From: Acidimicrobiales bacterium
GTDB taxonomy: Bacteria > Actinomycetota > Acidimicrobiia > Acidimicrobiales > Ilumatobacteraceae
Direction of reading: 5' to 3'
DNA length: 42,794 nt
Assembly (NCBI GenBank): GCA_947465505.1
Contig: CANIBN010000003.1
Coordinates: 1-42,794, forward strand
Positions 3,712 to 28,108 of the stretch are shown piece after piece (position 1 is the stretch's first letter; each line of letters starts with the position of its first letter). A model generated the notes under the pieces. That model worked only from the letters and a program-made list of their open reading frames with translations. It was not told where the DNA came from and did no database searches. Both the position numbers and the translations under genes were made by a program.

Positions 3712-3714
3712 GGA

Positions 3715-9905: not shown

Positions 9906-9938
9906 GGCGGTATGGGGCAACTGCCGCCCCATACCGCC
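9906..9938 (-). terminator. 13-bp perfect stem-loop
   Basis: ggcggtatggggc-AACTGCC-gccccataccgcc between the Fn3/WxL-like gene (stop 9971) and the DUF916-like gene (start 9881). Confidence 0.6.
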
Positions 9939-9970
9939 GAACCGACGTGAAGTTGGAAGGTGTGTCTTGC

Positions 9971-11803
9971 TCAGATGAGCGACAGCGTCAGGCTGCCCGT
10001 GTAGACCTGAGCATCTGCCGTGACCGGGATGAGCATGAGCAGTCGTCCATCGATCTGTGCCTCGCCGAGACCTGCTCCGGCCGCGGCCGATGCGAGGACG
10101 TTCGGGGTGGCATCGCCGAGGCCATCGCCGCTCGATACACCGGTACCGGGGAGAACGGTCGCACCTGCGGTGGCAACCTGATCGTACGTATCGTATGCCG
10201 CGGACGTTGCGGTGATCTTCGGGATCCAGCCGAGGTAGTTCCCGCTGAACGAACCGCTGACCGAACCCGTGAGGCTTCCGGCCGTGGCCGTGACGCTCCA
10301 CCCGAGATCGGAGTCGCGGGTGTCGAGCACGGTCACCTGGCTGAGCCGGCCGTTGGCGGTGAAGAAGTTGCCGCCGAGGCTCGCGTCATCGGCCAGACGA
10401 ACCAGTTCGGCCGTTCCCATGTCCAACGTGCACGCAGCGCTGCCGCCACCTGCCTCGGTTCCCGAGCCCGTTGCCGTTGCCGACGCGAGGGTCTTCGGGA
10501 AACCGGGGAACACACCACTCGTTGCAGTGAAGGAGTCGAGTGCACCGTAGACGCCACACTTCACGTAGATGAGCAGGGCGCCTGCCGGCCGGGTGACACT
10601 GTTGTCCTGACCGATGACCTGGTTGGAGTTCGGCGTCGCCTGCACGTTTGCGGCTGTACCGGTGAAGCTTCCACCACCCGTGGGGCTGTCCGAGTATCCC
10701 GACGGCGTGATGGTGAACGTATAGAGCGTGCCACCCGTGAGGCCGGTGATCGTCTCCGACGTGCCGGTAACACCCGTGTACGGGCCGGCGACGAAGGCGG
10801 AAGTTCCGGTGTTCGGGCTGACAGTGATGGTGTATCCCGTCGGGGCCGGGCTCGGCGCGGTCCAACTCAGGGTGACCTCCTCAGCGCCAGGGGTTCCCTG
10901 CAGGTTGGTCACCGCTCCACGCTGAGCGGGGTTCGGCGTCGAGGTACCGGTGCTGGACAGCGTGCTGTTACCAACGCTGTTCGTGGCAAGTGCCTTGAAA
11001 CAGTAGGTCGTGCCGTTGGTGAGACCCGTCACGACGAGCGGGGACGACGCACCGCTGACGTTCTTGGCGCTGTCCTCTGTCGTACAGGTGGAGTCGTACA
11101 CCTTGACCGTGTAGCCAGTGGTCGACGGGTTACCGTCGATCGCCGTGCCAGCGGTGAACGCAACCGACACCTGTCCGTCGCCGGCAGTCCGTGCGCCCAG
11201 CGTCGGGGCGTTGGGCACGAACCCCACCTTGTAGGTGAAGTTGTTCACTCCGCCGGTGCTGTTGTCTGCCGTGATGGTCAGCGGCGTCTTCCAGTACTTG
11301 ACGTTCTCGGTGGTTGTGCCGTCGTTGAGGGCACACGCCACTCCGATCCAGTACTGGCCCGCAGAGACCGACGAGAACGCTGCGTTCTTGAACGACAGGT
11401 TCGTGAGGTTTGCAACAGGGACATCGGCAGTGCTGAGGCCTGGGTTGATGTTCTTGGCCTGCGTGCCGGTTGTGTAGCGCAGGTAGGCCGTGAAGCTCGC
11501 ACCAGTCGGGGCTGCAAAGTTGAACACCATCGCCGCTGGATCCTCCGAACGCGGTGTGATGAATGTCTGCACCGAGTAGTTGCTCGACGCATCGCCAGGG
11601 CACACCTGAGCGCTGTCGAAGCCGAGTGCAAACGTGTCGTCGCTCTTGCCACTGGAGGGAGTAACGGTGACGGTGCCGGTTGCAGATGCCGGGTCGGTCT
11701 GGGCGGCGCTGGCCGTGGTGGCGTTTGCCACCACAACCAGTCCGCCGGCGAGGGCAGAGAGCCCCGCCAAGGTCGCCGCGAGGCGCTTGTAGTTTCGTTT
11801 CAA
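9971..11803 (-). CDS. Exported Fn3-domain protein with N-terminal CPGD-type domain and WxL-like C-terminus
   Basis: Signal peptide; AQVCPGDASSNYSVQTFITPRSEDPA...GQYWIGVACALNDG..YWKTPLTI; two Fn3-like repeats (GYTVKVYDS..VTGLTNGTTYCFKALATNSVG; EVTLSWTAPSPAPTGYTITV); C-terminal VTVLDTRDSDLGWSVTATAG ... AQVYTGSLTLSLI. Confidence 0.7.
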   Translation of the reverse strand: MKRNYKRLAATLAGLSALAGGLVVVANATTASAAQTDPASATGTVTVTPSSGKSDDTFALGFDSAQVCPGDASSNYSVQTFITPRSEDPAAMVFNFAAPTGASFTAYLRYTTGTQAKNINPGLSTADVPVANLTNLSFKNAAFSSVSAGQYWIGVACALNDGTTTENVKYWKTPLTITADNSTGGVNNFTYKVGFVPNAPTLGARTAGDGQVSVAFTAGTAIDGNPSTTGYTVKVYDSTCTTEDSAKNVSGASSPLVVTGLTNGTTYCFKALATNSVGNSTLSSTGTSTPNPAQRGAVTNLQGTPGAEEVTLSWTAPSPAPTGYTITVSPNTGTSAFVAGPYTGVTGTSETITGLTGGTLYTFTITPSGYSDSPTGGGSFTGTAANVQATPNSNQVIGQDNSVTRPAGALLIYVKCGVYGALDSFTATSGVFPGFPKTLASATATGSGTEAGGGSAACTLDMGTAELVRLADDASLGGNFFTANGRLSQVTVLDTRDSDLGWSVTATAGSLTGSVSGSFSGNYLGWIPKITATSAAYDTYDQVATAGATVLPGTGVSSGDGLGDATPNVLASAAAGAGLGEAQIDGRLLMLIPVTADAQVYTGSLTLSLI

Positions 11804-11838: not shown

Positions 11839-11857
11839 AACGGCTGGGTCAGCCGTT
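11839..11857 (-). promoter_or_regulatory. Short stem-loop overlapping the stop codon of the secreted PstS-like gene
   Basis: aacggctg-GGT-cagccgtt; stop codon at 11849-11851. Confidence 0.35.
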
Positions 11858-13174
11858 GTTGGCGAGCAGGCCGCCCTGGGTCGTCGTGTTTCCGCAGCCC
11901 GTGGTCGGGTCGCTTCCGAGGCTGTTGAAGCCGAATGCGTTCACGATCGCCTGTGCAGCGCTGCTGCAGATCAGCGAGGTGGAGCCCTTGAACATCTCGA
12001 TGATGGCGGCATCGCCAGTCGAGTTGTCGAGGTTGTCGGTGAGCACAATGTTGTAGACATTGCGGTTCCACGCCGTGTCGCTGTAGCCGTCGGAATTCGG
12101 CGACCACTTGCTGCCAACGGCGGCGCCGCTGTCGTAGGTCACGAACGTCTTGCCACCGGCCTTGCCGAGAGACACACCAGTACCCGGATCAGGCGAGGAG
12201 AGCCCGTTCGACTTGGAGATCCACCCGCTTGCGGCGAAGCCGACAATCACCTGCACGTCATCACAGGCCACAGCGCTTCCACCGGCAACGCCGTCGCAGA
12301 TCGCGTTCGTGGCGGTCAACAGAGCGTTTGCCTTTGCCTTGAGGTCCGGCCCGTGGTTCTCCTGGAGACGTGCGCCGTTCCCGATGCCGTTGCAGAAAGT
12401 GGTACCGGTTGCTTCCTGAGACGAGGTGTTCCCCGTCTTGCCGTACCACGTCTTATAGGTGCCAGACGAGGTCTGGATGCCGCAGGGGACGATCACCGTC
12501 CCGCTCTTCACGAGGACGCCGTCGGTGTACAGGCTCGTCAGTTCCGCCTTCGTGAGCGAGTCGATTGCGTTGTGGTACGAGCCACCGTCGACATCGAGCG
12601 TCTTCGGCTTGCTGTAGGCGAAGGTAAGCGCGTCCTTGCCGAAGGGAAGGGCAGTCAGGTTCGTGCCGACAGCGTTCGACGGGCTCGAGGAGGACCGAGC
12701 GAAGTCGACGAGGCCAGCGATGTTGCGGCTGTTGTTGCAGTTCGCAGCGGTGATGGCTGAGGTCACCGTGAGGCCCGAGTACCACACGCCGCCGGTCTGG
12801 CGGCTGAGGACCTTCTGGCCTTCACCGGAACCATTCGGACGGAGGATGAGCGGCGAACCGAGCTTGGTGGCGATGCACTCACGCTTGGTGGCGTCTGCCT
12901 CGCCGGGGATCGTGGCGTCGAAGTTGACGATCTGCTTGTAGCCGGTTGCCTCGGAGGTCACGAGGGGGGTGTAGGTCTTTCCGTTGGCAAACCCACCCAG
13001 CGCATTCATGACGTCCTGCGTCGTATCGGAACCGAATCCGAAGAGTGGCGCCTTGTACTGCTGGGGTTCGGCGTTTGCCGTGTGCGTGCTGGCGATCCCT
13101 GCGCCGGCCAGACCGGCGAGCGCTGCAGCACCAGCCACGAGGCTGATGATTTTCTTGGTGGTCGGTGACGACAT
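11849..13174 (-). CDS. Secreted PstS-like periplasmic-binding-fold protein (third PstS-type)
   Basis: Signal peptide MSSPTTKKIISLVAGAAALAGLAGAGIASTHTANA; LFGFGSDTTQDVMNALGG, LRPNGSGEGQKVL, VDFARSSSSPS; no C-terminal TM. Confidence 0.75.
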   Translation of the reverse strand: MSSPTTKKIISLVAGAAALAGLAGAGIASTHTANAEPQQYKAPLFGFGSDTTQDVMNALGGFANGKTYTPLVTSEATGYKQIVNFDATIPGEADATKRECIATKLGSPLILRPNGSGEGQKVLSRQTGGVWYSGLTVTSAITAANCNNSRNIAGLVDFARSSSSPSNAVGTNLTALPFGKDALTFAYSKPKTLDVDGGSYHNAIDSLTKAELTSLYTDGVLVKSGTVIVPCGIQTSSGTYKTWYGKTGNTSSQEATGTTFCNGIGNGARLQENHGPDLKAKANALLTATNAICDGVAGGSAVACDDVQVIVGFAASGWISKSNGLSSPDPGTGVSLGKAGGKTFVTYDSGAAVGSKWSPNSDGYSDTAWNRNVYNIVLTDNLDNSTGDAAIIEMFKGSTSLICSSAAQAIVNAFGFNSLGSDPTTGCGNTTTQGGLLANNG

Positions 13175-13345: not shown

Positions 13346-14221
13346 TCAGCCAAATTGACCGGTGACGTAAGCAGCGGTACGGCTGTCCTGCGGCGAACCG
13401 AACATTGCCGATGTCGGCCCGTGTTCGACGATGTGACCGGGTGTTCCATCCTGTGCGAGGAAGAAGGCGCACTGGTCCGACACGCGAGCCGCTTGCTGCA
13501 TGTTGTGCGTGACGATCACGATGGTGACCTCCGACTTCAATTCGGAGATCGTCTCCTCGATCCGGAACGTCGACGTCGGGTCGAGCGCCGAGCACGGCTC
13601 GTCCATGAGGAGCACGCGAGGCCGGATTGCCAGGGCTCGAGCGATGCAGAGTCGCTGCTGCTGACCCCCCGACAGACCACCGCCAGGCTGGCGCAGACGG
13701 TCGCGTACTTCTCGCCAGAGACCCGCCTTGGACAGACACTGCTCAACAATCTCGTCCTTGACCGCGGTGGGCACCTTGAGCCCCGTCAGTCGAAGGCTCG
13801 CAACGACGTTGTCGTAGATCGACATGGCCGGGAATGGATTCGGCTTTTGGAACACCATGCCGATTTGGCGGCGCGCATCGGTGAGTCGACGCGCGGGATC
13901 GTAGATGTCCTCGCCGTCGAGCAGCACCTCGCCTGCGAGCGATGCCGACGGAATCATCTCGTGCATCCGATTCAGGATGCGCAGAAACGTCGATTTGCCG
14001 CAGCCCGACGGGCCGATGAGCGCTGTCACCTCGCCCGCCTGCATGTCGAGCGACACACGGTCGAGCACCTGCCGACTCGAGAACCAGGCAGAGATCTCCC
14101 GAGCCTCGATACCGATCAACGGCTTCGCGGTCGTGACTTGGGCGGTGCCCTGGTCGGAACGACGTCCTCGGCTCCGCTGAGCGTCCTCGATACCCGACTT
14201 CTCGTTTCGTACGGTGATCAT
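13346..14221 (-). CDS. pstB: Phosphate ABC transporter ATP-binding protein PstB (copy 2)
   Basis: [80 protein letters not shown]. Confidence 0.95.
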   Translation of the reverse strand: MITVRNEKSGIEDAQRSRGRRSDQGTAQVTTAKPLIGIEAREISAWFSSRQVLDRVSLDMQAGEVTALIGPSGCGKSTFLRILNRMHEMIPSASLAGEVLLDGEDIYDPARRLTDARRQIGMVFQKPNPFPAMSIYDNVVASLRLTGLKVPTAVKDEIVEQCLSKAGLWREVRDRLRQPGGGLSGGQQQRLCIARALAIRPRVLLMDEPCSALDPTSTFRIEETISELKSEVTIVIVTHNMQQAARVSDQCAFFLAQDGTPGHIVEHGPTSAMFGSPQDSRTAAYVTGQFG

Positions 14222-14242
14222 GGTTTCCTCACTCGATCGTTA

Positions 14243-15193
14243 TCAGACAACGTTGGGGAGCAATCGAAAGAACTCGTCCCACACCAGGTTGCTCACGAGC
14301 AACAGCAGCGGTGTGCCGACGATCCAGGTCAGCGCGTGTCCCCATCTGCGCCACGACCACAGGGAGGCAACGATCGCGACGAGGAGCAGTTGGAGCCAGA
14401 GCACGAGCGCCCACAGTGTTCGAGAGTCGCTCGCTCCGGCCTGTTCCTCGCCCGGCAGGGTTGCCGCCGTGATCACTGCCGCCGGTCCGCCCACCGCGTC
14501 ACCTTGTAGGTCTGCATCCACCCACAGCACGCCGCTCGGGTTGAGCCCACTGCCTCCAGCGGTCGCCAGCACGAGTCGGGATGTACGTCCGCGTGGCGCC
14601 TCGGGTAGTGGATCGCCCGCGCGGCGAACGCCGATCACGGCGAAGCGGAATACGCCCTGTGCAGTGGTTGCGACGATCTCGCTGCCGGGCCGGAGCCTGT
14701 CGAGAGAGGCGAACGGTCCGCCAAACAACAAGCGGCGACCCACGATCACGCTGCGGCCGATCTGTCCGGGAAGCGGTGTGTCGCGCCGATGCCCCGGACC
14801 TGCGTAGAGATTGGAGGACGACGTTCCTTCGACGACGACCTCCTCCACATCGAGTGCAGGTATCTGGAGGTACGCCACGGGAGTCCCTGCGATGACGATT
14901 CGACCATCGCCGTCCAATGGTCCAACCGGAGCGGTGCCCGTGGCGAGGGCACCTCGGAAGCGGTCGTGGAGTCTCTGCTGTGACGCGCCGTGCTGGAAGC
15001 GGCTCACCACGAAGAGGTGAAGAACGGCCGACACCACGAGGACGAAGAGCATCAGGGCAGCACCGCGGACGAGCACAGCGCGCTCGCTCGGTACCGGGGC
15101 AGATGTCGCACTGGGCTTCCCGGCGTCAGGCATCAGGGAGTTATCGGCATCCACCGTTTCGTCGCTCTCGACGACCGTCAGTGAGAAACTCAT
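14243..15193 (-). CDS. Sortase-fold protein lacking the catalytic residues (pseudosortase candidate)
   Basis: LYAGPGHRRDTPLPGQIGRSVIVGRRLLFGGPFASLDRLRPGSEI and RLVLATAGGSGLNPSGVLWVDADL match the class E-type sortase layout, but the His, Cys and Arg positions are substituted; N- and C-terminal TM segments. Confidence 0.75.
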   Translation of the reverse strand: MSFSLTVVESDETVDADNSLMPDAGKPSATSAPVPSERAVLVRGAALMLFVLVVSAVLHLFVVSRFQHGASQQRLHDRFRGALATGTAPVGPLDGDGRIVIAGTPVAYLQIPALDVEEVVVEGTSSSNLYAGPGHRRDTPLPGQIGRSVIVGRRLLFGGPFASLDRLRPGSEIVATTAQGVFRFAVIGVRRAGDPLPEAPRGRTSRLVLATAGGSGLNPSGVLWVDADLQGDAVGGPAAVITAATLPGEEQAGASDSRTLWALVLWLQLLLVAIVASLWSWRRWGHALTWIVGTPLLLLVSNLVWDEFFRLLPNVV

Positions 15194-16104
15194 CAGGACA
15201 CCGTCCGACTTGCTCGCTGTCTGCGAGCGACCGAGAGGGCAGCCGCGGCGAGCAGAAGCGCCGTCCCGATCGCGATGCCGAGCGGTTTGGACAGGTTGTT
15301 TCCCTTGCTCGAATCGAGCGAAGTGACAGTGTCGCGCAACGGCCCTGCCTCGACGACCTGCTCTGCGGCCACCACCCCAACGGCCTGCTCCCGAGCACCC
15401 ACAAGTGCCGTCGTGGTTGGTTCTGTAGCCAAACGATTCTCGGTGGCACTGAGGGTCGTTGCCGGCGCCACTGGGCTCACAGCGGATGGGACTGTTTCGC
15501 TTCCTGCAACTGCTGCGCTATCGCCTTCCGAGGACGTGTCTGCCGGCTCATCGAGCAGCGTCATGAACGCGCCCCGATTCGCTGATGTGGAGATGGCCAC
15601 ACGCCGAGCCCAGAATCGGGTCGTGCGGGTAACCCCCTCGGCATCCTGCTTCGTGCAGGCAACACCGATCCAGTACTCGCCTGTCGGCATGGCATTGAAC
15701 GCCTTTCCCGAGAAGGTCAGATCGTCGGGAGGGATCACTTGTCCGTCGGTCAGTCCCGGATTGCGGTTTCGGACCCAGCTCTGTGTGGTGTCTCGCAGCC
15801 CACTCGTGAAGCCTCTGCCCTTCGGGAGTCCGAGCGAGTACGTCAACGACGCGGGATCATTCCCGATCGGCGTGACGAAGGTATGCCAGAGGTAGCCGGC
15901 CTCGCTGTCGCCCTGACAACGTTGTTGCGAAGCGAACGTCATCGAGAGCACATCGTCCCGCAGCGAGGGCTCGGGCGCAATCAGGAGAACCGGTTCCGTG
16001 GCGGCCTGTGCCGAGTCGATACCGACGTTCAGCATTCCAGCGAGCGACATCGGCAACACACCGGCGAGTACAGCGATGGAGCCGAACCGCTTCAGCAGCG
16101 TCAT
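15193..16104 (-). CDS. Exported single-TM protein of the CPGD-type domain family
   Basis: Signal peptide MTLLKRFGSIAVLAGVLPMSLAGML; QRCQGDSEAGYLWHTFVTPIGNDPASLTYSLGLP...GEYWIGVACTKQDAEG..FW; C-terminal TM LGIAIGTALLLAAAALSVARRQR; ATG overlaps upstream stop (ATGA). Confidence 0.7.
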   Translation of the reverse strand: MTLLKRFGSIAVLAGVLPMSLAGMLNVGIDSAQAATEPVLLIAPEPSLRDDVLSMTFASQQRCQGDSEAGYLWHTFVTPIGNDPASLTYSLGLPKGRGFTSGLRDTTQSWVRNRNPGLTDGQVIPPDDLTFSGKAFNAMPTGEYWIGVACTKQDAEGVTRTTRFWARRVAISTSANRGAFMTLLDEPADTSSEGDSAAVAGSETVPSAVSPVAPATTLSATENRLATEPTTTALVGAREQAVGVVAAEQVVEAGPLRDTVTSLDSSKGNNLSKPLGIAIGTALLLAAAALSVARRQRASRTVS

Positions 16105-16841
16105 CGCAGTGCGTCCTTCTCTGCTGTTGCACGCTGTGCTCGCGACGCCCGCACAAACGTTGCAACGGAACCGATCAGCACCAGGACACAGACCACCGCG
16201 AGCACGATCCAGAGGGTGTTCGATCGTTTGTCGAGGTTCTTCGCCTTCTGGAGAACTGTCCACTGCATGCTGGTGGGTGACGATTCGATAGAGATCAGCG
16301 TGTCCCAATACTGAGCCGTGACCCCCTTGCCGTCGGTACACGCGACCCCCATGCGGTACTCGCCGCTCGGCAGATAATCGATCGGCAGACGTTTGAAGCT
16401 GAACGACGGCAGCTCGATGATCTGTCCCGGTTGGCCTGGGGTGGAATTCGCCCCGAGCAGTTGGTTCATGTACGGACGGCCCTCGGAGGTATAGATCGCA
16501 ACGCGCGCGTCGTTCTCTGGGCCCTCCGGGCCGGTCACCATGTACCGCAAGGATCCGGGGTCATCCGTGCTCGGCACGACGAAACTCTGCACACGCCAGT
16601 CGTCATTCATGCTGTCCCCGGGACACGTTGCGCCACGGGGAAGACGGAGCGAGAACGCTGACTCGTGCGTGCCGGCGGTGAACGGACGAAGTCGGTTGTT
16701 TGCCTGCACGGCCTCGGCATCTCCCGATCTGCGAGCAGCCGCAACTGCCGTGCCGACAGGGATCTGAACCGCGACCGGGAGAGCAGCCAACAGCGCAAGC
16801 GCTGCGAACAGGCGACGAATGGTTTGGACGCTGAGGTTCAT
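16101..16841 (-). CDS. Exported single-TM protein of the CPGD-type domain family
   Basis: MNLSVQTIRRLFAALALLAALPVAVQIP signal; ATCPGDSMNDDWRVQSFVVPSTDDPGSLRYMV...GEYRMGVACTDGKGVTAQYW; C-terminal TM LWIVLAVVCVLVLIGSVATFVRASR. Confidence 0.7.
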   Translation of the reverse strand: MNLSVQTIRRLFAALALLAALPVAVQIPVGTAVAAARRSGDAEAVQANNRLRPFTAGTHESAFSLRLPRGATCPGDSMNDDWRVQSFVVPSTDDPGSLRYMVTGPEGPENDARVAIYTSEGRPYMNQLLGANSTPGQPGQIIELPSFSFKRLPIDYLPSGEYRMGVACTDGKGVTAQYWDTLISIESSPTSMQWTVLQKAKNLDKRSNTLWIVLAVVCVLVLIGSVATFVRASRAQRATAEKDALR

Positions 16842-19480
16842 TGCTGCACCCATCTGGCTGGGAGCCGACGTCGGATCGCTGGGATCAGCGTCTCCCTGGA
16901 TGTCAGTGCGGCGGCGAGTCCTGATCCGGCGAGCAGCGCCAGCAACACAAGCGCCGTGAGACGACTCGAACCCAGCGAGGTTCCCGGCGTGACCGGTCGC
17001 TCGGCTCCACCCAAGGCCAGCGAGGTATCCGGCACGGAGGTGTCGGCGGCGGCTGCAGTGCTCGATGTCGGCGTGGAGGTGTCAGGCACTGTCGAGTCCA
17101 ACGTCTCCGGGATCGTCGTGGTGAAGAACCCCCCGCCACCGCCGCTGTACGGAGCGCGCATCGACACCACCTTCGCTGCAGCTTCGGTTGCCTGGGTCCT
17201 GAGGGACTCCGAGAGGGGGACGAAACCGGGCGGCAGGTCCCCAGGCGCCAGCCCCACTTGTTGCCCCTTGTCCGCCGCGTACTTGAGGAAGGCGGCGTAG
17301 TCGGCGCGTGCCGAGGTGGAGAGGGCCAGCGGAGAGATCGCGGCGTAGGTCAACGTCGTCAACGGATAGGCATCCGGCGCTGCCGTGCTCAGTTTGGGTT
17401 CGAGGAACGAGGGTTCCTCGCCCGGTGCCATTGCCGCAATGCCAGCGACTAGAGCATCGTTGGTCGGGGCGATGAACCGGCGGTCCTCACCGTTGTCGCC
17501 AGGTCGACTGAGCAGCGCCGTCTGCAATCCGTACTGGAAGGCTGAGGGAGTATCTGTCAGCGTCAGCATGGAGCGGTAGCCGGCCGGTTGGGGTGCCTCT
17601 CGCTTCCAGGCGTCCGCTGAGTTCGCTGCGTAAATGTTGAACTCGACCCGTGCACCGTCAGCGGCCGCACGGGTGATCTGTGCACCATTGCTCAGACCAC
17701 CGGTATACGGAAGCCACTCTGTGCCACAGAGCGGGGCGGGAACCACAGAGCCGAGTGAAGGAGCCTGATAGCAATACGGATCGCTCTTCGGGAACGAGTT
17801 CGGCACAGGTTCCCCAAACGCCACCCCCGACGGGTTGATCGCAGCGTTCGCGGCGTACACCGGGTTCACTTTCATCCCCCAGCGATCCGGCGTGCCCGAG
17901 AGCCACAGCTTGGCTTCTGGATCGGCGAGCACGTAGTTCCACAACTGGGTCGCAGCGTCCGATGCGCCCGAGGGGAGTTGTATACCACTGAAGTTTCGGG
18001 GGCTCGAATTCTGAAGGAGAGCGAACTCGGGGTTGAACTGCAGGAAGTCAGGGTCCGTACCGAGGTGCAGCGCATTGTCGTTCAGCCAGGAGAAGCTTGG
18101 GATCTCTCCGTTGATCGCCACGCTTCGTACGTAGGACTGCGTCAACAGTTTCGCGATCAGCCGGGGGGTGAGCTTGATGGTTGCGACTCTGACACCTGCG
18201 AGGTCTTGTTCTTCCTGCGGTGCGTTGACCTTTGGCACCCGCTCGACGTTGAAGCCGATCACCAGACCGGATGCAGTCAGTGGTGCGTACACGATGGGCT
18301 TCGTCGTGTCGTAGGTTCCCGACGCGAGCGGTCGCGACACCACGACGAGGCCCGGCGAACCCTCAACCGGGTTTGCAAGCTGACCGCGTGCAGCGTCGTC
18401 GCCGATCGTTGCGTAGGAGAATGGCGGCAGTCCCCCACCGGTGCAGAGCGCGGGCTGCCAACTTGCGACCGCCGTGAGCGCTACTTCGCTTCCCGCAATA
18501 CGACGATCCTGCTTGCGGATGTCGCACGGTGAGTCCACGGGGTTGAAGCTGAGCGGGATCGCGATCCGATTTGCCCAGACGAGCGGAGACAGAGGTGACG
18601 TGGCGACGCCGAACTGCTCGGGATCTGCCCCGCCAAACGGAGTTCCGGCGTTCTCGTCGGCCGCGGATCCGCGCGGCACCACGACGATCCAGCACTGAGG
18701 AACCTTCTTGCCACCGCCCTCGACGGACTGCACCCGTTGGCCGCACCCGAGCCCCGTGGACTGGTTTCCGGTGTTCACCTGGAACAGTTCTGCGCCCTTG
18801 CCCTGGGCATCCGTGGTCGCCCCAGCGATTTCGTTGGTGGTGATCTCGTTGAAGTACGGGTTCAACCAGTAGTTGCCACCCACGATTGCGGGGTTGAAGT
18901 TTGGGTTCGCCTGGACGTTCACCACGTCGCCCGTTACCGATCGGAACGGCATCCACACGTTCGTTGTCCGGGAGTCGGTGTAGCCAACGGCTGGGTCGTA
19001 GCCAGCCCAACCAGAGCGAAAGATCACGCGGCTTGTTGCCAGCACATTCGGATACACGCCGGCCGGAGGGCCGTTGTAGTTGCCGCCCACCGCGCCCTGC
19101 ACGCACTGTTCGGGTGGCGGTCCCGGATTGTCCGGAACGACCGAGTCATCGTCGCCCCAGCACTGGAAGATCTGCAGGTAGTTCGCAGCAAACCGACCCG
19201 GTCCCTGAACCGTCGGTTCGCCTCCTGTCCACGTGATGGAGACCGCTTGGTTCGTCAGTTTCTCTGTCTGGTTCACCGAGATTCGCAGGGTCGAGAACCT
19301 CCCGCGTCCGTTTACGGTGACACGCGACGCCGTGTTGGGCAGCGCGGTGTCTGTGCCCTGGCTACCCGGCACCGGTGAACCCGTTGCAAAGGAAGCGGTC
19401 ATCCCACCTGCGGTCGCAGCAAGGACCAAGACGGTCGATACAGCAAGGGCAGCACCGGCGAGAGCGCCTCGCCGTTTCAC
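16838..19480 (-). CDS. 880-aa exported, C-terminally anchored protein, probable divergent PstS/PBP-like
   Basis: Signal peptide MKRRGALAGAALAVSTVLVLAATAGG; VATIKLTPRLIAKLLTQSYVRSVAINGEIPSFSW and C-terminal YPLTTLTYAAI..DYAAFLKYAADKGQQVGL resemble PBP segments; C-terminal TM. Confidence 0.65.
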   Translation of the reverse strand: MKRRGALAGAALAVSTVLVLAATAGGMTASFATGSPVPGSQGTDTALPNTASRVTVNGRGRFSTLRISVNQTEKLTNQAVSITWTGGEPTVQGPGRFAANYLQIFQCWGDDDSVVPDNPGPPPEQCVQGAVGGNYNGPPAGVYPNVLATSRVIFRSGWAGYDPAVGYTDSRTTNVWMPFRSVTGDVVNVQANPNFNPAIVGGNYWLNPYFNEITTNEIAGATTDAQGKGAELFQVNTGNQSTGLGCGQRVQSVEGGGKKVPQCWIVVVPRGSAADENAGTPFGGADPEQFGVATSPLSPLVWANRIAIPLSFNPVDSPCDIRKQDRRIAGSEVALTAVASWQPALCTGGGLPPFSYATIGDDAARGQLANPVEGSPGLVVVSRPLASGTYDTTKPIVYAPLTASGLVIGFNVERVPKVNAPQEEQDLAGVRVATIKLTPRLIAKLLTQSYVRSVAINGEIPSFSWLNDNALHLGTDPDFLQFNPEFALLQNSSPRNFSGIQLPSGASDAATQLWNYVLADPEAKLWLSGTPDRWGMKVNPVYAANAAINPSGVAFGEPVPNSFPKSDPYCYQAPSLGSVVPAPLCGTEWLPYTGGLSNGAQITRAAADGARVEFNIYAANSADAWKREAPQPAGYRSMLTLTDTPSAFQYGLQTALLSRPGDNGEDRRFIAPTNDALVAGIAAMAPGEEPSFLEPKLSTAAPDAYPLTTLTYAAISPLALSTSARADYAAFLKYAADKGQQVGLAPGDLPPGFVPLSESLRTQATEAAAKVVSMRAPYSGGGGGFFTTTIPETLDSTVPDTSTPTSSTAAAADTSVPDTSLALGGAERPVTPGTSLGSSRLTALVLLALLAGSGLAAALTSRETLIPAIRRRLPARWVQQ

Positions 19481-21159
19481 TGAGTCCCCCGTTTACCGAG
19501 CCGTCGCCAAGCGAGCGCAGGTACGAAGATCACCGCGAGGATCATGAGGCCCACCAGTAAGCCGATTCCGAGACCTGCAGACTGGCGCTTCAGGGTGGTG
19601 GTGACGACATCGCCGACGGGCACTGCGCCGGCTGAACCGGCCGCAGCGTTACCGCCTTCCGACGTGCCCCCATCGCCTTGATCGACGGCCCCTCCCGGGA
19701 TCGTGTCACCGGTAGCCGGATCACCGCCGGTATCAGTGGTGCCTTCCGGTCCCGTCGCTCCGTCAACTGTCGTGTCCCCGCCAGAACTTGTTCCGCCGCT
19801 TGAGGAACTCCCTCCGCTGGCACCAGAGTTCACCGCTGTCGGCACGTTCTTCAAGCCGCCTGTTCCATTCGGGCATTGCAGCGAACCCTTCTTGTCGCAC
19901 GCCTTCGGTTGGGGTGCCTTCTTGGCGAGCAGGTTGGTTCCGTCCGACGAGAACGTCGGATTGTTGCACTTCGAGATGTCCACCGACTGCAACTCGACGC
20001 CCGGGATCTTGGCGATCTGTTCAAGACTTGCCTGGACGAGGTTCACCGGCATCGGGGAATAGCCCAGCGAGGCAGACTGCTGCTGGGCCTGACACATCAT
20101 GTAGTAGGCGACAGCACCGAGCGTGCGTCCCTTCGCCTCGTTGAACTGGCCGGCCACCTTCGTCGGAAGGATGAAGTACGAGTACGACGACAACTGATAA
20201 CTGCGGGGATCGGCATCGGTGTACACACCCTCGAGCTGTTGCGTGAGGTACATCGCCGGGTTGCTCTCGTCCTTGTTGATCTTTGCCTTGAGCAGCGATA
20301 CCGCAACGTTCTGTGGGGTTGGCTCGGTGTAGAACCCAGCCTTGTTGAGCACCTTCGCAACCGGGAACTGGGCACCGAGCGCGTACGAATAGTTCACGTA
20401 GCCAATAGCGCCCTCGGCGAAGCTCTGGCTCACGTAACCAGCGATGCCCAGGTCACCAGACTGCGCGACAACACCCTTCACGGTCGGGTAGAAGGACGTA
20501 TAGCCGCAGGCAGGTGCCCGGCCAGAACGCTGGCAATAGTCGTCCCAGATCGCTTTGTGCATGGCAATCATCCACTTGGTGAACTGTGCACTCGAGCCCG
20601 AACCGTCGGAGCGAACCACCGGCACGATGTCACGAGCGGGAAGTGTCAGGCCGGGGTTATCAGCAGCGATCGCAGGGTCGTCCCACTTGGTGATCACCCG
20701 GGTGAAGATCTTCGCAACGTTCTCGCCGGACAAGCGGAGATTCGTGACCCGCTTTCCGTTGATCTTCAGGTTGTACATGAAGGACGTTCCGCCGGCGACG
20801 ACAGGGATGTAGGCGTAACTACCCGGTGCCGGGTTCTCCGGGGCGGAGCCGTCCTCTGGCTTGAACTGGAAGGGGATGTCCGAGGCTGCGAAGTCAACCG
20901 TTCCGTTCAGGAAGTTTTTTCGTCCCGACGTCGAGCCGCTCGGGTTGTAGTCCATGGTGATACCGAACTGACGGACGTTGACCCGTACCGCGTCAATTGC
21001 GTTCGCCGCCCACGAGGACCCTTCTCCCGAGATTCGCTGGTAGCCACCGTCAGCCGAGGCGGAGGTGGCGACGACGCTCAGACAACAGACGAGGCCAAGG
21101 GCAAGCGCCCCTGCACGAGCGACGTTTCCGGAACGGCTATGTCTCTGCAGCGCCTTCAT
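19477..21159 (-). CDS. pstS: Membrane-anchored phosphate-binding protein PstS (copy 2)
   Basis: ISGEGSSWAANAIDAVRVNVRQFGITMDYNPSGSTSGRKNFLNGTVDFAASDIPF, VVRSDGSGSSAQFTKWMI; Gly/Thr-rich linker then TM GLGIGLLVGLMILAVIFVPALAWRRLGKRG. Confidence 0.9.
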   Translation of the reverse strand: MKALQRHSRSGNVARAGALALGLVCCLSVVATSASADGGYQRISGEGSSWAANAIDAVRVNVRQFGITMDYNPSGSTSGRKNFLNGTVDFAASDIPFQFKPEDGSAPENPAPGSYAYIPVVAGGTSFMYNLKINGKRVTNLRLSGENVAKIFTRVITKWDDPAIAADNPGLTLPARDIVPVVRSDGSGSSAQFTKWMIAMHKAIWDDYCQRSGRAPACGYTSFYPTVKGVVAQSGDLGIAGYVSQSFAEGAIGYVNYSYALGAQFPVAKVLNKAGFYTEPTPQNVAVSLLKAKINKDESNPAMYLTQQLEGVYTDADPRSYQLSSYSYFILPTKVAGQFNEAKGRTLGAVAYYMMCQAQQQSASLGYSPMPVNLVQASLEQIAKIPGVELQSVDISKCNNPTFSSDGTNLLAKKAPQPKACDKKGSLQCPNGTGGLKNVPTAVNSGASGGSSSSGGTSSGGDTTVDGATGPEGTTDTGGDPATGDTIPGGAVDQGDGGTSEGGNAAAGSAGAVPVGDVVTTTLKRQSAGLGIGLLVGLMILAVIFVPALAWRRLGKRGTQ

Positions 21160-22373
21160 CGTGTACCTCCTTCGACGGTCTCGATTCGCTCGAGATCCTT
21201 TGCTGAGCGCCGCATCGTTCGACGAGCCTGTCGTTTTGACTGTCGACCCGCCGGACGGCCGGCGATCACACGCGCGAGCGTGAATAGGGCAAGCACCAGA
21301 ACCATGAGCACCGCCGCAGTTGCGAACCCTCGCTGTATGAGCGCCTGCTGTGGAGACCGGACGAACTCGAACACGGCGAGCGGGAGGGACATCATCGGGT
21401 TGCGTCGCGGGTTCGAGTTGATCGTTGACGTAATGCCGGACACGAGCAGCACTGGCGCGGTCTCACCCACACCACGCGCAACACCAAGGATCACTGCGTT
21501 GACCAGACCGGAACGCGCCGTAGGGAGCACCACGTGCCAGACAGTTCTCCACTGCGGTGCGCCCGTTGCCTCGGAGGCCTCACGGAGGTTGCCCGGGACC
21601 AAGCGGAGAACTACCTCGGCAGAGCGCACGATGATCGGCAGCATCATGATGCTGATGGCAAGGGAGGCCGCAAAGCCAGATCGCTCAAACCCGAGAATGA
21701 GTACCCACGTGGCGAAGATGAAGAGGCCCGCCAGGATCGAGGGCAGCGCCGTCATTGCTGTTACCACGCTGCGGACGACTCCCCGCATCCGGCTCCGGGT
21801 CTCGTTCAGGAAGACCGCACAGGCAAGTCCGAGGGGGACGGTCACCACGAGCGCCAGTGACACGATGATGACGGTGCCCACTATTGCGTGCAGGATTCCG
21901 CCCTTCTCGAGTGGATCGAGCGGCCCTGCTTGACTCATGTCCTGCACATAGAGGTTCGACTTCAGCAACGCTGAGCGCCCACGCCACAGCGTGAATCCGA
22001 CGACCGATACCAGTGCGGCACCAGCGATGACTGCTGCCGCCGAGAACAACGAGCCCATCACTCGGTCGACGACGGCCGGTCGGTCCTCGGTGAGCGAGAC
22101 CAACAACCCATAGACAACGACGAACAGGGCGAAAGCAACGACGACGAAGCCAAGTCGTCCGCGGAACGGAGCAAGACGGCCAAAGAGCAGTTCGGTGGTT
22201 GCGAGGGATGCGATAGCGGAGCCGAACAGCACCACGAGATCCCGGCGCGAGATGCGACCGATGGAACGACGGACCTGTGGGGTAGTCGGCTGGGCGGAAC
22301 GGGTTGGGACGGTCGTGCGACCCATAGTTGCCGGTCGCGATTCGCCGCCAATCGGGAGCGGAGTGTCGGTCAT
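21156..22373 (-). CDS. pstA: Phosphate ABC transporter permease PstA (copy 2), N-terminally extended
   Basis: VLRLVPGNLREASEATGAPQWRTVWHVVLPTARSGLVNAVILGVARGVGETAPVLL; ATG at 22373 overlaps pstC2 stop (ATGA). Confidence 0.92.
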   Translation of the reverse strand: MTDTPLPIGGESRPATMGRTTVPTRSAQPTTPQVRRSIGRISRRDLVVLFGSAIASLATTELLFGRLAPFRGRLGFVVVAFALFVVVYGLLVSLTEDRPAVVDRVMGSLFSAAAVIAGAALVSVVGFTLWRGRSALLKSNLYVQDMSQAGPLDPLEKGGILHAIVGTVIIVSLALVVTVPLGLACAVFLNETRSRMRGVVRSVVTAMTALPSILAGLFIFATWVLILGFERSGFAASLAISIMMLPIIVRSAEVVLRLVPGNLREASEATGAPQWRTVWHVVLPTARSGLVNAVILGVARGVGETAPVLLVSGITSTINSNPRRNPMMSLPLAVFEFVRSPQQALIQRGFATAAVLMVLVLALFTLARVIAGRPAGRQSKRQARRTMRRSAKDLERIETVEGGTR

Positions 22374-23392
22374 GCTTCGCTCCCAGCGCCCGAGCGGGAT
22401 CGAGCGACAAAGATGGAGGCAACGAAATTCACCACGAGCGTCAGGGCGAACAACGTCAGTCCCGCCGCCATGAGGGCGGAGAGTCCGAATCCGGTTGCCT
22501 CGGGAGTTCGAAGTGCGATGAGCGAGGACACCGAGTTGCTGCCGTTCTCGAGAACGTGGAAGCTGATGTCGAAACGGGGCGAGATGATGAGGTAGACGGC
22601 GATCGTCTCGCCGAGCGCTCGTCCGAGGCCGAGCATGGTCCCGCCGATGATTCCCCCACGGCCGAACGGCAGGGTGACCGTGCGGATCATCCCCCAACGT
22701 GTCGAGCCCAGAGCGAATGCACCTTCCCGTTCTCCGGGGGGCACTTGCGAGAACACCTCGCGCATCACGGAGCACGCGATGGGCATCACCATCATGGACA
22801 CCACAACACCCGCTATGAAGGTGGACGCCGTATAGACGGTGCCACTCGAGATCGGGCTGGTGGGATCGTCACCTGACACGCTGAAGAGCGGGAACCAGCC
22901 GAACCAGGTGGTCAGCCAGCGGGACAAACCGATGATCTGTCCCTGCAGGAAGAACAGACCCCAGAGCCCGTACACCACGCTCGGCACTGCGGCCATGAGG
23001 TCGACGATCGCAATGAATGTCGACCGGAGCCAACTCGGGACGACCTCGACGATGAACAGTGCCGTTCCCATGGCGAGCGGAAGCGCAATGGCGACAGCAA
23101 GCAGAGCGATGAGGATCGTGAAGAGGAGCACCGCTGCAACGCCGAAGACCCTCCGGTCGGGCTGCCATGTCGATGTCGTGAAGAACTTGAACCCGACCGC
23201 GCTGAATGCATCCCACGCCTCAATCGTGAGGAAGAGCCCAACTGCGGCCATCACGGCCAGCACGCTGACGCCAGTCAGCGACAGTCCACGGTTGAAGTTC
23301 CTGTCGCCGAGGCCGCGACGACTGCTGATCTCGCGGGGTGTAGGCGCCGGACGTTCGTCGTCCCGAACGGGAAGCGAGGTGTTTGTTTGCAT
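22370..23392 (-). CDS. pstC: Phosphate ABC transporter permease PstC (copy 2)
   Basis: ALGSTRWGMIRTVTLPFGRGGIIGGTMLGLGRALGETIAVYLI. Confidence 0.92.
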   Translation of the reverse strand: MQTNTSLPVRDDERPAPTPREISSRRGLGDRNFNRGLSLTGVSVLAVMAAVGLFLTIEAWDAFSAVGFKFFTTSTWQPDRRVFGVAAVLLFTILIALLAVAIALPLAMGTALFIVEVVPSWLRSTFIAIVDLMAAVPSVVYGLWGLFFLQGQIIGLSRWLTTWFGWFPLFSVSGDDPTSPISSGTVYTASTFIAGVVVSMMVMPIACSVMREVFSQVPPGEREGAFALGSTRWGMIRTVTLPFGRGGIIGGTMLGLGRALGETIAVYLIISPRFDISFHVLENGSNSVSSLIALRTPEATGFGLSALMAAGLTLFALTLVVNFVASIFVARSRSGAGSEA

Positions 23393-23395
23393 GAT

Positions 23396-23671
23396 CTAGA
23401 CCGCCCAGGCGATGAGGACGATCGCCACGATGAGCAGGGCGACACTGGCGAGAATGACGTCTGCATGAAAGAGAGTCGACAGCCGTCGCGTACGTCGACC
23501 AGTACTGGGGGCCTTGCCTTGACGACGAGCGTCGGTGCTTGTGCCCGATAGTGCTCCTTCGTCCCGGAGCACCGCAGCGATGGCGGTAGCCAAACGCTTG
23601 ATGTCAGCGTCGCTGAGCATTGACCGTCCCTGGTCTGCAGTGTTGGCATCGGGGTCGGAGGTGCTATTCAT
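23396..23671 (-). CDS. Small protein with one C-terminal TM, first gene of the pst2 operon
   Basis: MNSTSDPDANTADQGRSMLSDADIKRLATAIAAVLRDE...HADVILASVALLIVAIVLIAWAV; start chosen at 23671 because the longer ORF would overlap the PHO-like element. Confidence 0.6.
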   Translation of the reverse strand: MNSTSDPDANTADQGRSMLSDADIKRLATAIAAVLRDEGALSGTSTDARRQGKAPSTGRRTRRLSTLFHADVILASVALLIVAIVLIAWAV

Positions 23672-23738: not shown

Positions 23739-23760
23739 ACGACGTGACCACAAGGTGAAC
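23739..23760 (-). promoter_or_regulatory. PHO-box-like direct repeat upstream of the pst2 operon
   Basis: Minus strand GTTCACCTTGT-GGTCACGTCGT: two contiguous 11-nt units. Confidence 0.7.
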
Positions 23761-23845: not shown

Positions 23846-25861
23846 TCAGGCGAGCGGCTTCACTGCCTTCGCGGTGGTCAGTGCGGCACCGGTCCCGAGG
23901 AGGTTGCGTGCCGAGACACGCACCTTGTACCCGGTGCCGGCCACCAGACCGGTGATCTGATAGGTGGTCGCTGTGGACACACCGTCGCTCACCGTTGTCC
24001 AGGTAACTCCACCGTTGCTCGAGATCTCGATGACGTAATCGGTGATGTCCGATCCACCATCGGCCGACGGAGCGGCCCATGACACGTTCAGCGACGTGGA
24101 GGCCGCGGTCGCCTTGAGCGATCGGACCTTGCCGGGCAGCACCAGATACGGCTTCACAGCCTTCGCAGTGCCGGCCGTCTTTCCGTAGCCGGAGAACACG
24201 GTGTTCGTTGCCGACACCCGCACCTTGTACCCAGTGCCGTTCACCAGACCCGGGATCGTGTAGCTCAGTGCCGTGCCAGCACTTGCGCTCGACCAGGACA
24301 GACCATCGACCGTCCACTCGACGAAATAGTTGCTGACCGGTTCGCCACCGTCGTCCTTCGGGGCCTTCCAGGTCACCACGACCGAGAGGTTCCTCGGGGT
24401 TGCCTTCACCGATTGCGGAGCAGTCGGCAGGCTGAGATATGGCTTCACAGCCTTCGCAGTGGAGACTGCAGAACCAGTGCCAGCCACGTTCCGTGCAGAC
24501 ACCCGCACCTTGTAACCGGTGGCGTTCACGAGACCGGTGATCGTGTAGCTCGTGCCGGTCGACTCGCCATCGCTGACCGTGCTCCAAGTGGTTCCGCCGT
24601 TCGAGGAGTACTCGATGGCGTAATCGGTGAGCGCCGATCCACCATTGCTCGAGGGCGCAGTCCAGGTCAGGTTCAACGAGGCATTCCGTGCGACGGCTTT
24701 CAAGGAGCGCACCTTGCCGGGGACGCTGCGGGGAACAACGACGTCGGTCACAAGGTAGGACCCGACTTCGGAACCCTTCGTGGCCGCCACCCGGAATTCG
24801 TAGTTGGCGCCGTTTGTCAACTTGCTCACGACGAAGGTGGTGGCCGTCGAGACGACGCTCTTTGCGCTCGTCCAGGCCCCGTCGTTCTTGCGATACTCAA
24901 TCTTGTAGTCCGAGATCGGGCTGAGCGAGGGCCATGCCCCGGCGCTCCACGTGAGCGTGACGCTCGCATTCCCGGGAACCGCAGCAAGCGGAACAATCGG
25001 GGTCGAGGTATTGGTCGACGACAGCGCGCTGTCGCCACGCGCGTTCGACGCTTTCACGGCAAAGCAGTACGTGGTGCCATTGGCCAGCCCGCTCACGGTG
25101 ATCGGACTGCCCGAGCCGGACGCTGAGGTGATCCCCGTGGTACACGTCGCATCCTTCACCACGACCGTGTAGCCGGTGTCATCCGGGTTGCCGGGCACCT
25201 TTGCTGCGGGGGTGAACGCAACGTCGACCTCACCCTCGCCGGCCGTCAGGCTCCCGAGTGTCGGCGCCTTGGGGGTGAAGCCGGTTTCGTACGTGAAGTT
25301 GTTCGTGCCCTGACCACTTGCAGGCGTGATGGTGATCGGAACGGCCCAGTACTTGACGGTCTGGGTGACGAACGAGAGGTCGTCCTGCGTGCAGGCGATT
25401 CCCAGCCAGTACTCGCCAGAGAGAGCGGAATACGTGGCATTGGAGAGCACGACGTTGGTGGGCGGGAGAATCTGTCCGTCTGTGAGACCGGGGGTCTTGT
25501 TGCGGATCCAGGAGTTGACATTGGTGCGCAGGCCCTTGGCTCCAACATCGGAGCCGTCACTCGAACGGGGAAGTCCGGTGTAGTACGTGAACGTTGCGGG
25601 ATCCAGCGATCGTGGGGCGATGAACGTCTGCCAGAGGTAGCCGCTGTTGAAGTCACCCGGGCAGTTCTGGGCGGTGGAGAACGAGAGCGCGATCGTCGTA
25701 TCGCTGTTTCCCGAAGCAGGAGTGACCGTCACCGTGCCCTCCGCCGCGGTGCCACCGGCGAGTGCGTTGGCAGGCGTTCCCCCCTGCAGGCTTACCGCGC
25801 CAACGACCAGCCCTGCTGCCGTCAAGATCGACAATCCGAAACGCTTCGCCTTTATGAGCAC
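23846..25861 (-). CDS. Exported CPGD-domain protein with about five Fn3 repeats
   Basis: Signal peptide; AQNCPGDFNSGYLWQTFIAPRSLDPATFTYYTGLP...GEYWLGIACTQDDLS..YWAVPITITP; repeated VRSLKA..SLNLTWTAPSSNGGSALTDYAIEYSSNGG..YTITGLVNATGYKVRVSARN units. Confidence 0.8.
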   Translation of the reverse strand: MLIKAKRFGLSILTAAGLVVGAVSLQGGTPANALAGGTAAEGTVTVTPASGNSDTTIALSFSTAQNCPGDFNSGYLWQTFIAPRSLDPATFTYYTGLPRSSDGSDVGAKGLRTNVNSWIRNKTPGLTDGQILPPTNVVLSNATYSALSGEYWLGIACTQDDLSFVTQTVKYWAVPITITPASGQGTNNFTYETGFTPKAPTLGSLTAGEGEVDVAFTPAAKVPGNPDDTGYTVVVKDATCTTGITSASGSGSPITVSGLANGTTYCFAVKASNARGDSALSSTNTSTPIVPLAAVPGNASVTLTWSAGAWPSLSPISDYKIEYRKNDGAWTSAKSVVSTATTFVVSKLTNGANYEFRVAATKGSEVGSYLVTDVVVPRSVPGKVRSLKAVARNASLNLTWTAPSSNGGSALTDYAIEYSSNGGTTWSTVSDGESTGTSYTITGLVNATGYKVRVSARNVAGTGSAVSTAKAVKPYLSLPTAPQSVKATPRNLSVVVTWKAPKDDGGEPVSNYFVEWTVDGLSWSSASAGTALSYTIPGLVNGTGYKVRVSATNTVFSGYGKTAGTAKAVKPYLVLPGKVRSLKATAASTSLNVSWAAPSADGGSDITDYVIEISSNGGVTWTTVSDGVSTATTYQITGLVAGTGYKVRVSARNLLGTGAALTTAKAVKPLA

Positions 25862-26005: not shown

Positions 26006-28108
26006 TCAGCGTCGCTGGTTGAGGCGGTGGATTCGGTTCTGCGGATGGTTCGAAGAAGAGTCACCGCGTCGGTGCCACTGGCCCTCAGCGTCCAGCTCCC
26101 ACGCAATTGCGTCCTCTGCCAAGAGTTCCTCGAGGACGTTGTCGAGCCGGGTGCGGTGACCACGGTCCCTGATCGGCATGAGCACTTCCACACGACGATC
26201 AAGGTTGCGTTCCATGATGTCTGCCGACCCGATGATGTGCATCGCCTTGCCACGGCCCGAACCGTTGGCGAAGCGGAAGATCCGCGAGTGTTCCAGATAG
26301 CGACCGATCACCGATCGGACCCGGATGTTCTCGGAGAGCCCGGGTACCCCAGGGCGCAGGCAGCAGATGCCTCGGACCAACAGGTCGACACGAACTCCGG
26401 CGCTGCTGGCACGGTAGAGCGCCATGATGAGTTCCGGGTCTGCTACTGCATTCACTTTCGCAACGATGGCTCCCGATGTCCCGTGTGCAATCTCGTTGTC
26501 GATGAGCTCGATGAGGCGCGGGCGCAATTGCGTCGGCGCAACGAGGATCTTGCGATACTTCTCTTCCTTCGAGTACCCGGTGAGATGGTTGAACAACTCT
26601 CCGAGGTCGGCGCCGATCTCTGGATCTGCGGTGAAGAGTCCGAAGTCCTCGTAGACGCGAGCAGTACGGGAGTTGTAGTTACCCGTGCCGATGTGGGCAT
26701 AGCGACGCAGTCCGTCGTCGTCGTCACGGACGACCAGCACACACTTGGAATGTGTCTTCAGGCCGACAAGACCGAACATGACGTGCACACCGCTTTGCTC
26801 AAGCTTGCGTGCCCAGGTGATGTTTGACTGCTCGTCGAATCGGGCCTTGAGCTCCACGAGTACTGCGACCTGCACACCGCGTTCAGCGGCGCGCGCAAGG
26901 CTCTCGGCAATGCGGCTGTCGTCCGACATCCGGTACAGCGTCATCTTGATGGACTGCACCTTCGGATCGTCTGCCGCTGCAGCGATGAACGACTCGACCG
27001 TCTTAGAGAACGATTCGTACGGGTGGTGAACGAGGAGGTCTCGCTCTCGCAGCGTCTCGAACCAGTCGGTGTCGCGCCGGTCGATGGCCTGCACCCTTGA
27101 CGGCGTGGAGCCTTTCCAGGGTTCGTCTCGCAGTGCCGGACGATCAAGAGACGCCACCTGAAACAGCGCAGTGAGATCGATCAACGTACGGTGGCTGGTG
27201 ACGTCGTCCTCGTCGAGGTCGAGTTCCTCGAGCAACAGCCGAAGCAGAGTGTCGGGCATGCCGTGCTGTGCCTCAAGACGAACGGCTCGACCAAATCGCC
27301 GGCGGCGCAGTTCCATCTCCAGCGCCTCAAGCAGGTCCTCGGCCTCGTCCTCGTCAACCGTGAAGTCGGTATTGCGCGTGACTCGGAAGAACCAGTGCTC
27401 CTCAATCCGCATCCCCGGGAACAACTCGCCGAGTTGCGCAGCGATCACTTGCTCGAGCGGCACGAAGCGCACCCCGTCAGAGAGCGCCACCAGCCGCGGC
27501 AGGAGCGAGGGGACCTTCACCCGAGCGAAGCGTCGTTCGCCATCATCGGGGTCGCTCACCATTACCGCGAGGTTGAGCGACAGGTTCGAGATGTAGGGGA
27601 ACGGGTGAGCCGGGTCGACGGCGAGTGGTGTGAGCACGGGAAACACCCGCTCGCGGAACAGTGCCACCACTTCGTTGCGGGCGGAATCGTCGAGATCGTC
27701 CCAATTGACGAGGTCGATACCGGCGTCGTGGAGGGCCGGGAACAGTTCGTCGGAGAGGATCCGTTCCTGCTCGGCGACCAGGTCGGCCACGACGTCGCCT
27801 ACCTCCAACAACACCTGCGTCGGGGGTCGGCCGTCTGCACCGGGAGCCGTGATGCCGGCGTCGACTTGGTTCTTCAGTGCAGACACTCGCACCTGGAAGA
27901 ACTCGTCGAGGTTCGAGGAACAGATGGCAACGAACTTCACGCGCTCCAGCAGAGGAACGTTGGCCTCGCAGGCCTGCGCGAGGACGCGTGCGTTGAAATC
28001 CAGCCAGGAGAGTTCCCGGTTCAGGAGCACGTCGGTAGTCGGTTCCCCCACGACGCGAGAGGGTACCGATCGCTGCACAGCGCGTGCCGGTAGCGGGAGG
28101 GAGTTCAC
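26006..28108 (-). CDS. ppk1: Polyphosphate kinase 1
   Basis: LNRELSWLDFNARVLAQA, SIKMTLYRMSDDSRI, ELKARFDEQSNITWARKLEQSGVHVMFGLVGLKTHSK, RYAHIGTGNYNSRTARVYEDFGLFT. Confidence 0.97.
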   Translation of the reverse strand: MNSLPLPARAVQRSVPSRVVGEPTTDVLLNRELSWLDFNARVLAQACEANVPLLERVKFVAICSSNLDEFFQVRVSALKNQVDAGITAPGADGRPPTQVLLEVGDVVADLVAEQERILSDELFPALHDAGIDLVNWDDLDDSARNEVVALFRERVFPVLTPLAVDPAHPFPYISNLSLNLAVMVSDPDDGERRFARVKVPSLLPRLVALSDGVRFVPLEQVIAAQLGELFPGMRIEEHWFFRVTRNTDFTVDEDEAEDLLEALEMELRRRRFGRAVRLEAQHGMPDTLLRLLLEELDLDEDDVTSHRTLIDLTALFQVASLDRPALRDEPWKGSTPSRVQAIDRRDTDWFETLRERDLLVHHPYESFSKTVESFIAAAADDPKVQSIKMTLYRMSDDSRIAESLARAAERGVQVAVLVELKARFDEQSNITWARKLEQSGVHVMFGLVGLKTHSKCVLVVRDDDDGLRRYAHIGTGNYNSRTARVYEDFGLFTADPEIGADLGELFNHLTGYSKEEKYRKILVAPTQLRPRLIELIDNEIAHGTSGAIVAKVNAVADPELIMALYRASSAGVRVDLLVRGICCLRPGVPGLSENIRVRSVIGRYLEHSRIFRFANGSGRGKAMHIIGSADIMERNLDRRVEVLMPIRDRGHRTRLDNVLEELLAEDAIAWELDAEGQWHRRGDSSSNHPQNRIHRLNQRR

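Follow-up and report, generated by a model that had tools for sequence, protein, structure and literature searches.

A second Pst locus of actinobacteria linked to a sortase-fold protein without catalytic residues and to two further PstS-fold proteins

Organisation of the pst2 locus

The window analysed here is the whole 42,794-nucleotide stretch of contig CANIBN010000003.1 from an Acidimicrobiales bacterium, which carries two sets of pst phosphate transport genes. In the second set, pst2, the permease subunits PstC2 and PstA2, the ATPase PstB2 and a transmembrane-anchored, intact-pocket PstS2 are encoded together with P880 (880 amino acids), the PstS-fold protein PBP466 and a sortase-fold protein free of catalytic residues, which we call the pseudosortase. 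These proteins form one conserved module (Table 1).

An initial annotation had described nine minus-strand genes at 13346-23671 joined by stop/start overlaps. All nine open reading frames lie where it placed them, and the sequence confirms the overlaps pstC2/pstA2 (22370-22373), pstA2/pstS2 (21156-21159), pstS2/P880 (19477-19480), P880/CPGD A (16838-16841), CPGD A/CPGD B (16101-16104) and CPGD B/pseudosortase (15193); a gap of 21 nt separates the pseudosortase gene from pstB2. The extent given to the module was too short, as it really continues through PBP466, the CPGD/fn3 WxL-type protein and the WxL-interacting protein (WxLIP). In several Acidimicrobiia the gene corresponding to the secreted protein at 7753-8751 comes after the WxLIP gene. 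The small transmembrane protein is indeed the first gene of the run and is kept only in close relatives.

PstC2 and PstA2 score above the cut-offs of their families (196 and 193 bits, respectively). PstB2, at 340.7 bits, falls slightly below the curated cut-off of 343.2, and TIGR00972 is by far its best family; PstS2 reaches 175 bits with TIGR00975, below the cut-off of 205. P880, CPGD A and CPGD B have no Pfam match above cut-off. The ratio of nonsynonymous to synonymous substitution rates against a congener is 0.02-0.23 for genes of the run (0.54 for CPGD B, CPGD_303), which indicates that they are maintained under purifying selection.

Table 1. Features of pst2 and its extended module in the window.
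Feature	Position	Strand	Evidence
PHO-box-like direct repeat GTTCACCTTGTGGTCA	23745-23760	-	pattern scan; 5' of pst2 operon
Small single-transmembrane protein, gene 1 of run	23396-23671	-	Pfam/NCBIfam: no match
pstC2, phosphate permease subunit	22370-23392	-	TIGR02138 239 bits
pstA2, phosphate permease subunit	21156-22373	-	TIGR00974 205 bits; true start ATG at 22373
pstS2, phosphate-binding protein	19477-21159	-	PF12849 1.8e-33; PDB PstS matches
P880: N-terminal extra domain, PstS-fold domain, C-terminal transmembrane helix	16838-19480	-	AlphaFold2, Foldseek
CPGD protein A: signal peptide, beta-sandwich, C-terminal transmembrane helix	16101-16841	-	AlphaFold2 pLDDT 91.6
CPGD protein B (303 amino acids), C-terminal transmembrane segment	15193-16104	-	sequence
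Pseudosortase, class-E-derived sortase fold	14243-15193	-	PF04203 1.4e-12; PDB sortase E matches
pstB2, ATPase	13346-14221	-	TIGR00972 341 bits; Walker A, signature and Walker B motifs in reading frame
PBP466, secreted PstS-fold protein	11849-13174	-	PDB profile matches to phosphate-binding proteins
CPGD + fn3 protein, WxL-type C-terminal domain	9971-11803	-	fn3 2.7e-13
WxLIP, peptidoglycan-binding domain	8748-9974	-	PF06030 29.5 bits, cut-off 27.3
Secreted protein	7753-8751	-	no Pfam match; overlaps WxLIP gene by 4 nt

Conservation and linkage across actinobacteria

Searches with P880 first recovered loci in four other Acidimicrobiia lineages, with gene order unchanged, and then 80 loci spanning Acidimicrobiia, Streptomyces, Actinoplanes, Catellatospora, Cellulomonas, Curtobacterium, Nocardioides, Amycolatopsis, Saccharothrix, Actinokineospora and others. 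Two of these loci, L027 and L041, come from metagenome-assembled genomes titled 'Bifidobacterium breve'; the loci resemble versions of Acidimicrobiia type and Actinoplanes type, and the records are probably mislabelled. For linkage we counted only P880 loci whose fetched DNA reaches far enough. Such loci contain pstC and pstS in 68/68 cases and pstA in 66/68, and the check proposed with the initial annotation, whether the non-pst genes stay beside pst2 in relatives, came out strongly in favour of linkage across many orders: the pseudosortase and PBP466 are each present in 51/51 loci and pstB in 50/51.

Because these loci had been picked by P880, we also searched 248 genomes of the order with the sortase-fold protein as the starting point. 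Neighbourhoods were read for eight inactive sortases, and each of the eight adjoins pst genes; neither of two active class-E sortases read for comparison does. From this side, too, the set is retained in independently found rearranged variants, in which P880 and the pseudosortase run one way and pstC-pstA-pstB-pstS the opposite way. For example, L014 and L117-L119 keep the set in scrambled, divergently transcribed order; PBP466 was not detected in every divergent variant. It follows from the P880-side loci and these rearranged variants together that the core of the system is PstC, PstA, PstB, an anchored PstS, P880, PBP466 and the pseudosortase. Recurrence and rearrangement rule out a chance neighbourhood, the gene set lying far beyond chance. 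A single-protein search found full-length P880 in ∼6/247 genomes across the phylum; the system is thus patchy.

The pseudosortase

The sortase fold proposed for the protein at 14243-15193 holds (PF04203 47.9 bits, cut-off 26.6; matches to PDB 5go5 and 5go6), and the enzymatic role that such a fold would imply does not. The NCBIfam class E model NF033747 gives 57.9 bits and its cut-off of 160 is not reached. One N-terminal and two C-terminal transmembrane segments can be read in the protein. The catalytic residues of Streptomyces coelicolor SrtE1 are His251, Cys320 and Arg329, and Tyr229 has been proposed to read the LAxTG signal (PMC5148588); Tyr229 is the tyrosine of GHY, which we identified via the mutagenesis primers in the same paper. 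The position of His251 is Arg in 63/63 pseudosortases and Arg or Lys in 6/6 divergent variants, and that of Cys320 is Ala, Gly, Thr or Val in the 63 and Ser, Thr or Ala in the six variants. Catalytic His and Cys are hence absent from 69/69, and an active sortase role was rejected. Control sortases, most of them from the same genomes, retain both residues in 14/15 cases. The exception, L115, is another dead sortase and lies beside P880-like and pst genes.

Phylogenetic analysis places the 69 pseudosortases and L115, the one additional and independently found member, in one clade (support 0.946), in line with activity having been lost once and the link to pst having been kept ever since. The surroundings of the former active site are strongly conserved (GPGHRRDT-PGQ-G-S--GRR--GGPF), from which we infer that the site was retained for a non-catalytic purpose. 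Separate class-E-type sortases are present in every genome checked. Judged by these residues, a set of proteins annotated as 'sortase' are not true sortases. The pseudosortases of L117 and L118 retain the class-E strand with the Arg after the former Cys (TLVTSDP...RRL), without His and Cys, and are possible intermediates of inactivation.

PstS-fold proteins

PstS2 carries a Ser/Gly-rich linker and a C-terminal transmembrane helix in place of a lipobox, and inspected relatives have a transmembrane-like tail. The family retains Ser38, Arg135, Asp137, Ser139, Gly140, Thr/Ser10, Thr/Ser141 and an acidic residue at position 56 (Arg135 75/76, Gly140 76/76; Ser38 and Asp/Glu56 each in 73/73 aligned members). 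These are the phosphate ligands seen in Escherichia coli PstS.

P880 was modelled with high confidence (predicted local distance difference test (pLDDT) 93.2, predicted template modelling score 0.92). Its second half matches PstS structures (Foldseek TM-score 0.77 on target), and its profile aligns with that of PstS2 at E 1.6e-9. The pocket is degenerate, the Asp56 and Arg135 loops not being conserved in the profile alignment. P880 as a plain PstS is ruled out, since the PstS pocket residues do not align. The PBP466 family is PBP_like_2, with PF12849 detected in 13/39 members (best 1.1e-9). Its pocket is remodelled: equivalents of Asp56 and Arg135 are lost, and R114, S118, R162 and S239 are invariant.

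Wall-directed accessory proteins

The CPGD proteins are secreted, fold as beta-sandwiches and end in a transmembrane segment, and short anchored members were recognised in Acidimicrobiia only. The confident model of CPGD protein A has no PDB fold match at E<=0.001; invariant Cys, Gly and Trp residues suggest that CPGD is a secreted domain of Acidimicrobiia that has yet to be classified. About two thirds of loci other than those of Acidimicrobiia encode WxL-type and WxLIP proteins. The WxL family PF13731 is detected in 5/15 homologues of the 9971-11803 protein (best 2.9e-7); the window's own member is below Pfam detection. A 671-amino-acid protein at 23846-25861, with an N-terminal CPGD domain and five fn3 repeats, is a paralogue of the 9971-11803 protein; it is present in the congener and is not generally conserved 5' of pstC elsewhere.

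LPxTG/LAxTG-type tails are found on 20/56 CPGD proteins and are absent from CPGD protein B of the window. Proteins with such tails stand directly 5' of the pseudosortase in ∼27/44 other loci, and the tails may be substrates of the active class-E sortases of these genomes. In four Streptomyces loci (L062, L065, L077 and L090) the LAxTG-type tail of the protein 5' of the pseudosortase shares a GLLTF/GLLNF-like ending after a basic stretch, which is unusual among sorting signals.

Phosphate context and regulation

The canonical pst1 block (196-6911) encodes the lipoprotein PstS1 (5676-6851), PstC1, PstA1 and PstB1, as well as PhoU (2099-3052), a histidine kinase (908-2095) and a PhoB-type regulator (196-996). 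As pst1 shares the window, pst2 is an extra system; likewise, a separate canonical pstC is present in 9/10 module-carrying genomes checked. Neither phoU nor a kinase gene occurs in pst2, the window's PhoU sitting in the pst1 block, and in other genomes the fetched flanks of most loci encode no Pho regulator. With ppk at 26006-28108, the two pst sets make the window a phosphate island.

The PHO box consists of 11-nt direct repeats with a GTTCACC core (PMC4415409). The repeat GTTCACCTTGTGGTCA lies 74 bp 5' of the first gene of pst2, matches the PHO box at the sequence level, and is also present in the congener. PHO-box scans gave a weak signal with a simple core pair or a unit matrix and a clearer one with exact patterns and controls. 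The pattern GTTCAYCN4GTTCA, with at most one mismatch, has three matches in the 42.8 kb against 0.41 expected, and the other two are directly 5' of pstS1, where PHO-box-like repeats lie at 6878-6911. Across loci, a TTCGTCCGTTGTTCA-type element stands 5' of pstC in 13/69 compared with 0.8% of control slices, mostly 77-131 bp from the conserved pstC start. These matches fit a predicted Pho control of pst2.

Interpretation and alternatives

We regard pst2 as probably an accessory, Pho-regulated, high-affinity phosphate importer in which a membrane- and wall-anchored extracytoplasmic assembly replaces the single free lipoprotein. PstS2 would bind inorganic phosphate (Pi) and deliver it to PstCA. 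At the permease, P880 and the pseudosortase would make up a non-catalytic platform on which the anchored binding proteins are docked and held and which, in richer loci, connects to wall-facing CPGD, WxL/WxLIP and LAxTG proteins; under starvation, the assembly might concentrate phosphate or relay it from the thick wall to the permease. A more specific proposal, to which we give slightly less than even weight, is that a catalytically dead sortase family, having arisen once, was recruited as an obligate structural subunit of the importer and, with the pseudo-binding protein P880, builds a membrane-anchored capture and relay complex that spans the actinobacterial wall. The intact PstS2 pocket, the C-terminal transmembrane anchors and the PHO-box-like repeat fit the envelope-anchored capture suggested by the initial annotation, with Pi as the specific ligand; phosphate capture by P880 itself is not supported, its pocket being degenerate.

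Several observations weigh against this interpretation. No PHO-like element was found 5' of pstC in most Streptomyces copies. Position 56 is Glu, not Asp, in 53/73 PstS2 members, chiefly outside Acidimicrobiia, possibly a shift of oxyanion preference. The ligand of P880 and PBP466 may be a different one, in which case Pi may not be the only substrate. The position of Tyr229 is Tyr in 0/69 pseudosortases compared with 9/15 controls; with the class-E substrate tyrosine lost, the groove may not hold LAxTG peptides. Moreover, in minimal versions of the locus (Cellulomonas, Curtobacterium, Nanopelagicales) the interval from P880 to pstB encodes no LAxTG protein. The latter two findings weaken the idea of the pseudosortase as a holder of LAxTG peptides.

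The main rival is a multi-receptor importer, in which PstS2, P880 and PBP466 are alternative receptors for various phosphorus compounds or oxyanions that share one PstCAB, with the pseudosortase a minor structural part. One operon does hold three PstS-fold proteins, and the invariant Arg and Ser residues that PBP466 has in place of the Asp56/Arg135 equivalents are as expected of a re-specialised pocket. This reading is nonetheless unlikely, as the profile alignment finds the PstS ligand residues missing from P880 and the strict conservation of a dead sortase is left unexplained. Less probable still is a Pi-sensing device, a second Pst complex that mainly reports external or wall phosphate status to PhoR: the presence of pst1, phoU, phoR, phoB and ppk in the window and the PHO-like box at pst2 would suit it, but pst2 itself has no phoU or kinase gene, Pho regulators are missing from most flanks elsewhere, and the ATPase motifs of PstB2 are intact.

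Two further alternatives take the wall proteins as their starting point. The many wall-directed parts (WxL, WxLIP, fn3, CPGD) could suggest an ABC transporter that powers or controls the building of a wall structure and imports no phosphate. We consider this very improbable, because the permease and PstS2 are genuine components of a Pst importer, the Pi pocket being retained, and because the pst genes are constant whereas the wall parts vary. An enzymatic sortase locus, with CPGD proteins attached to the wall by the sortase and pst genes as mere neighbours, would account for the LPxTG/LAxTG proteins so often directly 5' of the sortase-fold gene. It is scarcely credible: the missing His and Cys refute catalysis at the sequence level, minimal loci have no such substrate, and the separate class-E sortases could process these signals.

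Relation to known systems

Like the PstSCAB importer, pst2 encodes PstC, PstA, PstB and a PstS with Pi-binding residues, preceded by a PHO-box-like repeat. It differs in the C-terminal transmembrane anchor of its PstS, in the strictly linked P880, PBP466 and pseudosortase, in the absence of phoU (common there, not universal) and in that its genome usually has a canonical pst as well, to which it is second. Mycobacterium tuberculosis has three separate Pi-binding lipoproteins, PstS1-3. Multiple PstS-fold proteins are thus shared with that species, and P880 and PstS2 match the PstS1-3 structures; unlike these, P880 is anchored by a transmembrane helix, carries an extra domain and has a degenerate pocket.

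The pseudosortase shares the sortase fold and N-terminal transmembrane segment of class E sortases such as SrtE1 of S. coelicolor (PMC5148588), and SrtE is among its best PDB matches. It departs from them in the replacement of His251 by Arg, Cys320 by Ala/Ser/Thr/Gly/Val and Tyr229 by Arg or other residues, in its two extra C-terminal transmembrane segments and in being found only in pst loci. As in Firmicutes WxL clusters (PMC9772566, PMC10599100), a putative WxL-domain protein adjoins a WxL-interacting protein with a C-terminal transmembrane segment; here, by contrast, the pair is in an actinobacterial phosphate-transport operon, where it is optional and absent from minimal versions.

Significance

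In the open-access literature searched, we found neither a pst operon that includes a sortase-like gene nor a dead sortase of this type described. As a transporter, pst2 is of the Pst kind; its obligate pseudosortase and pseudo-PBP partners are apparently undescribed. If the interpretation is correct, pst2 would represent a multi-protein form, not described before, of a nutrient importer that is among the best studied, and the pseudosortases would be a family that turned the fold of a wall-anchoring enzyme into a non-catalytic transporter partner. The locus raises the question of how thick-walled actinobacteria, including cultured strains of Streptomyces, Actinoplanes and Cellulomonas, capture scarce phosphate outside the membrane.

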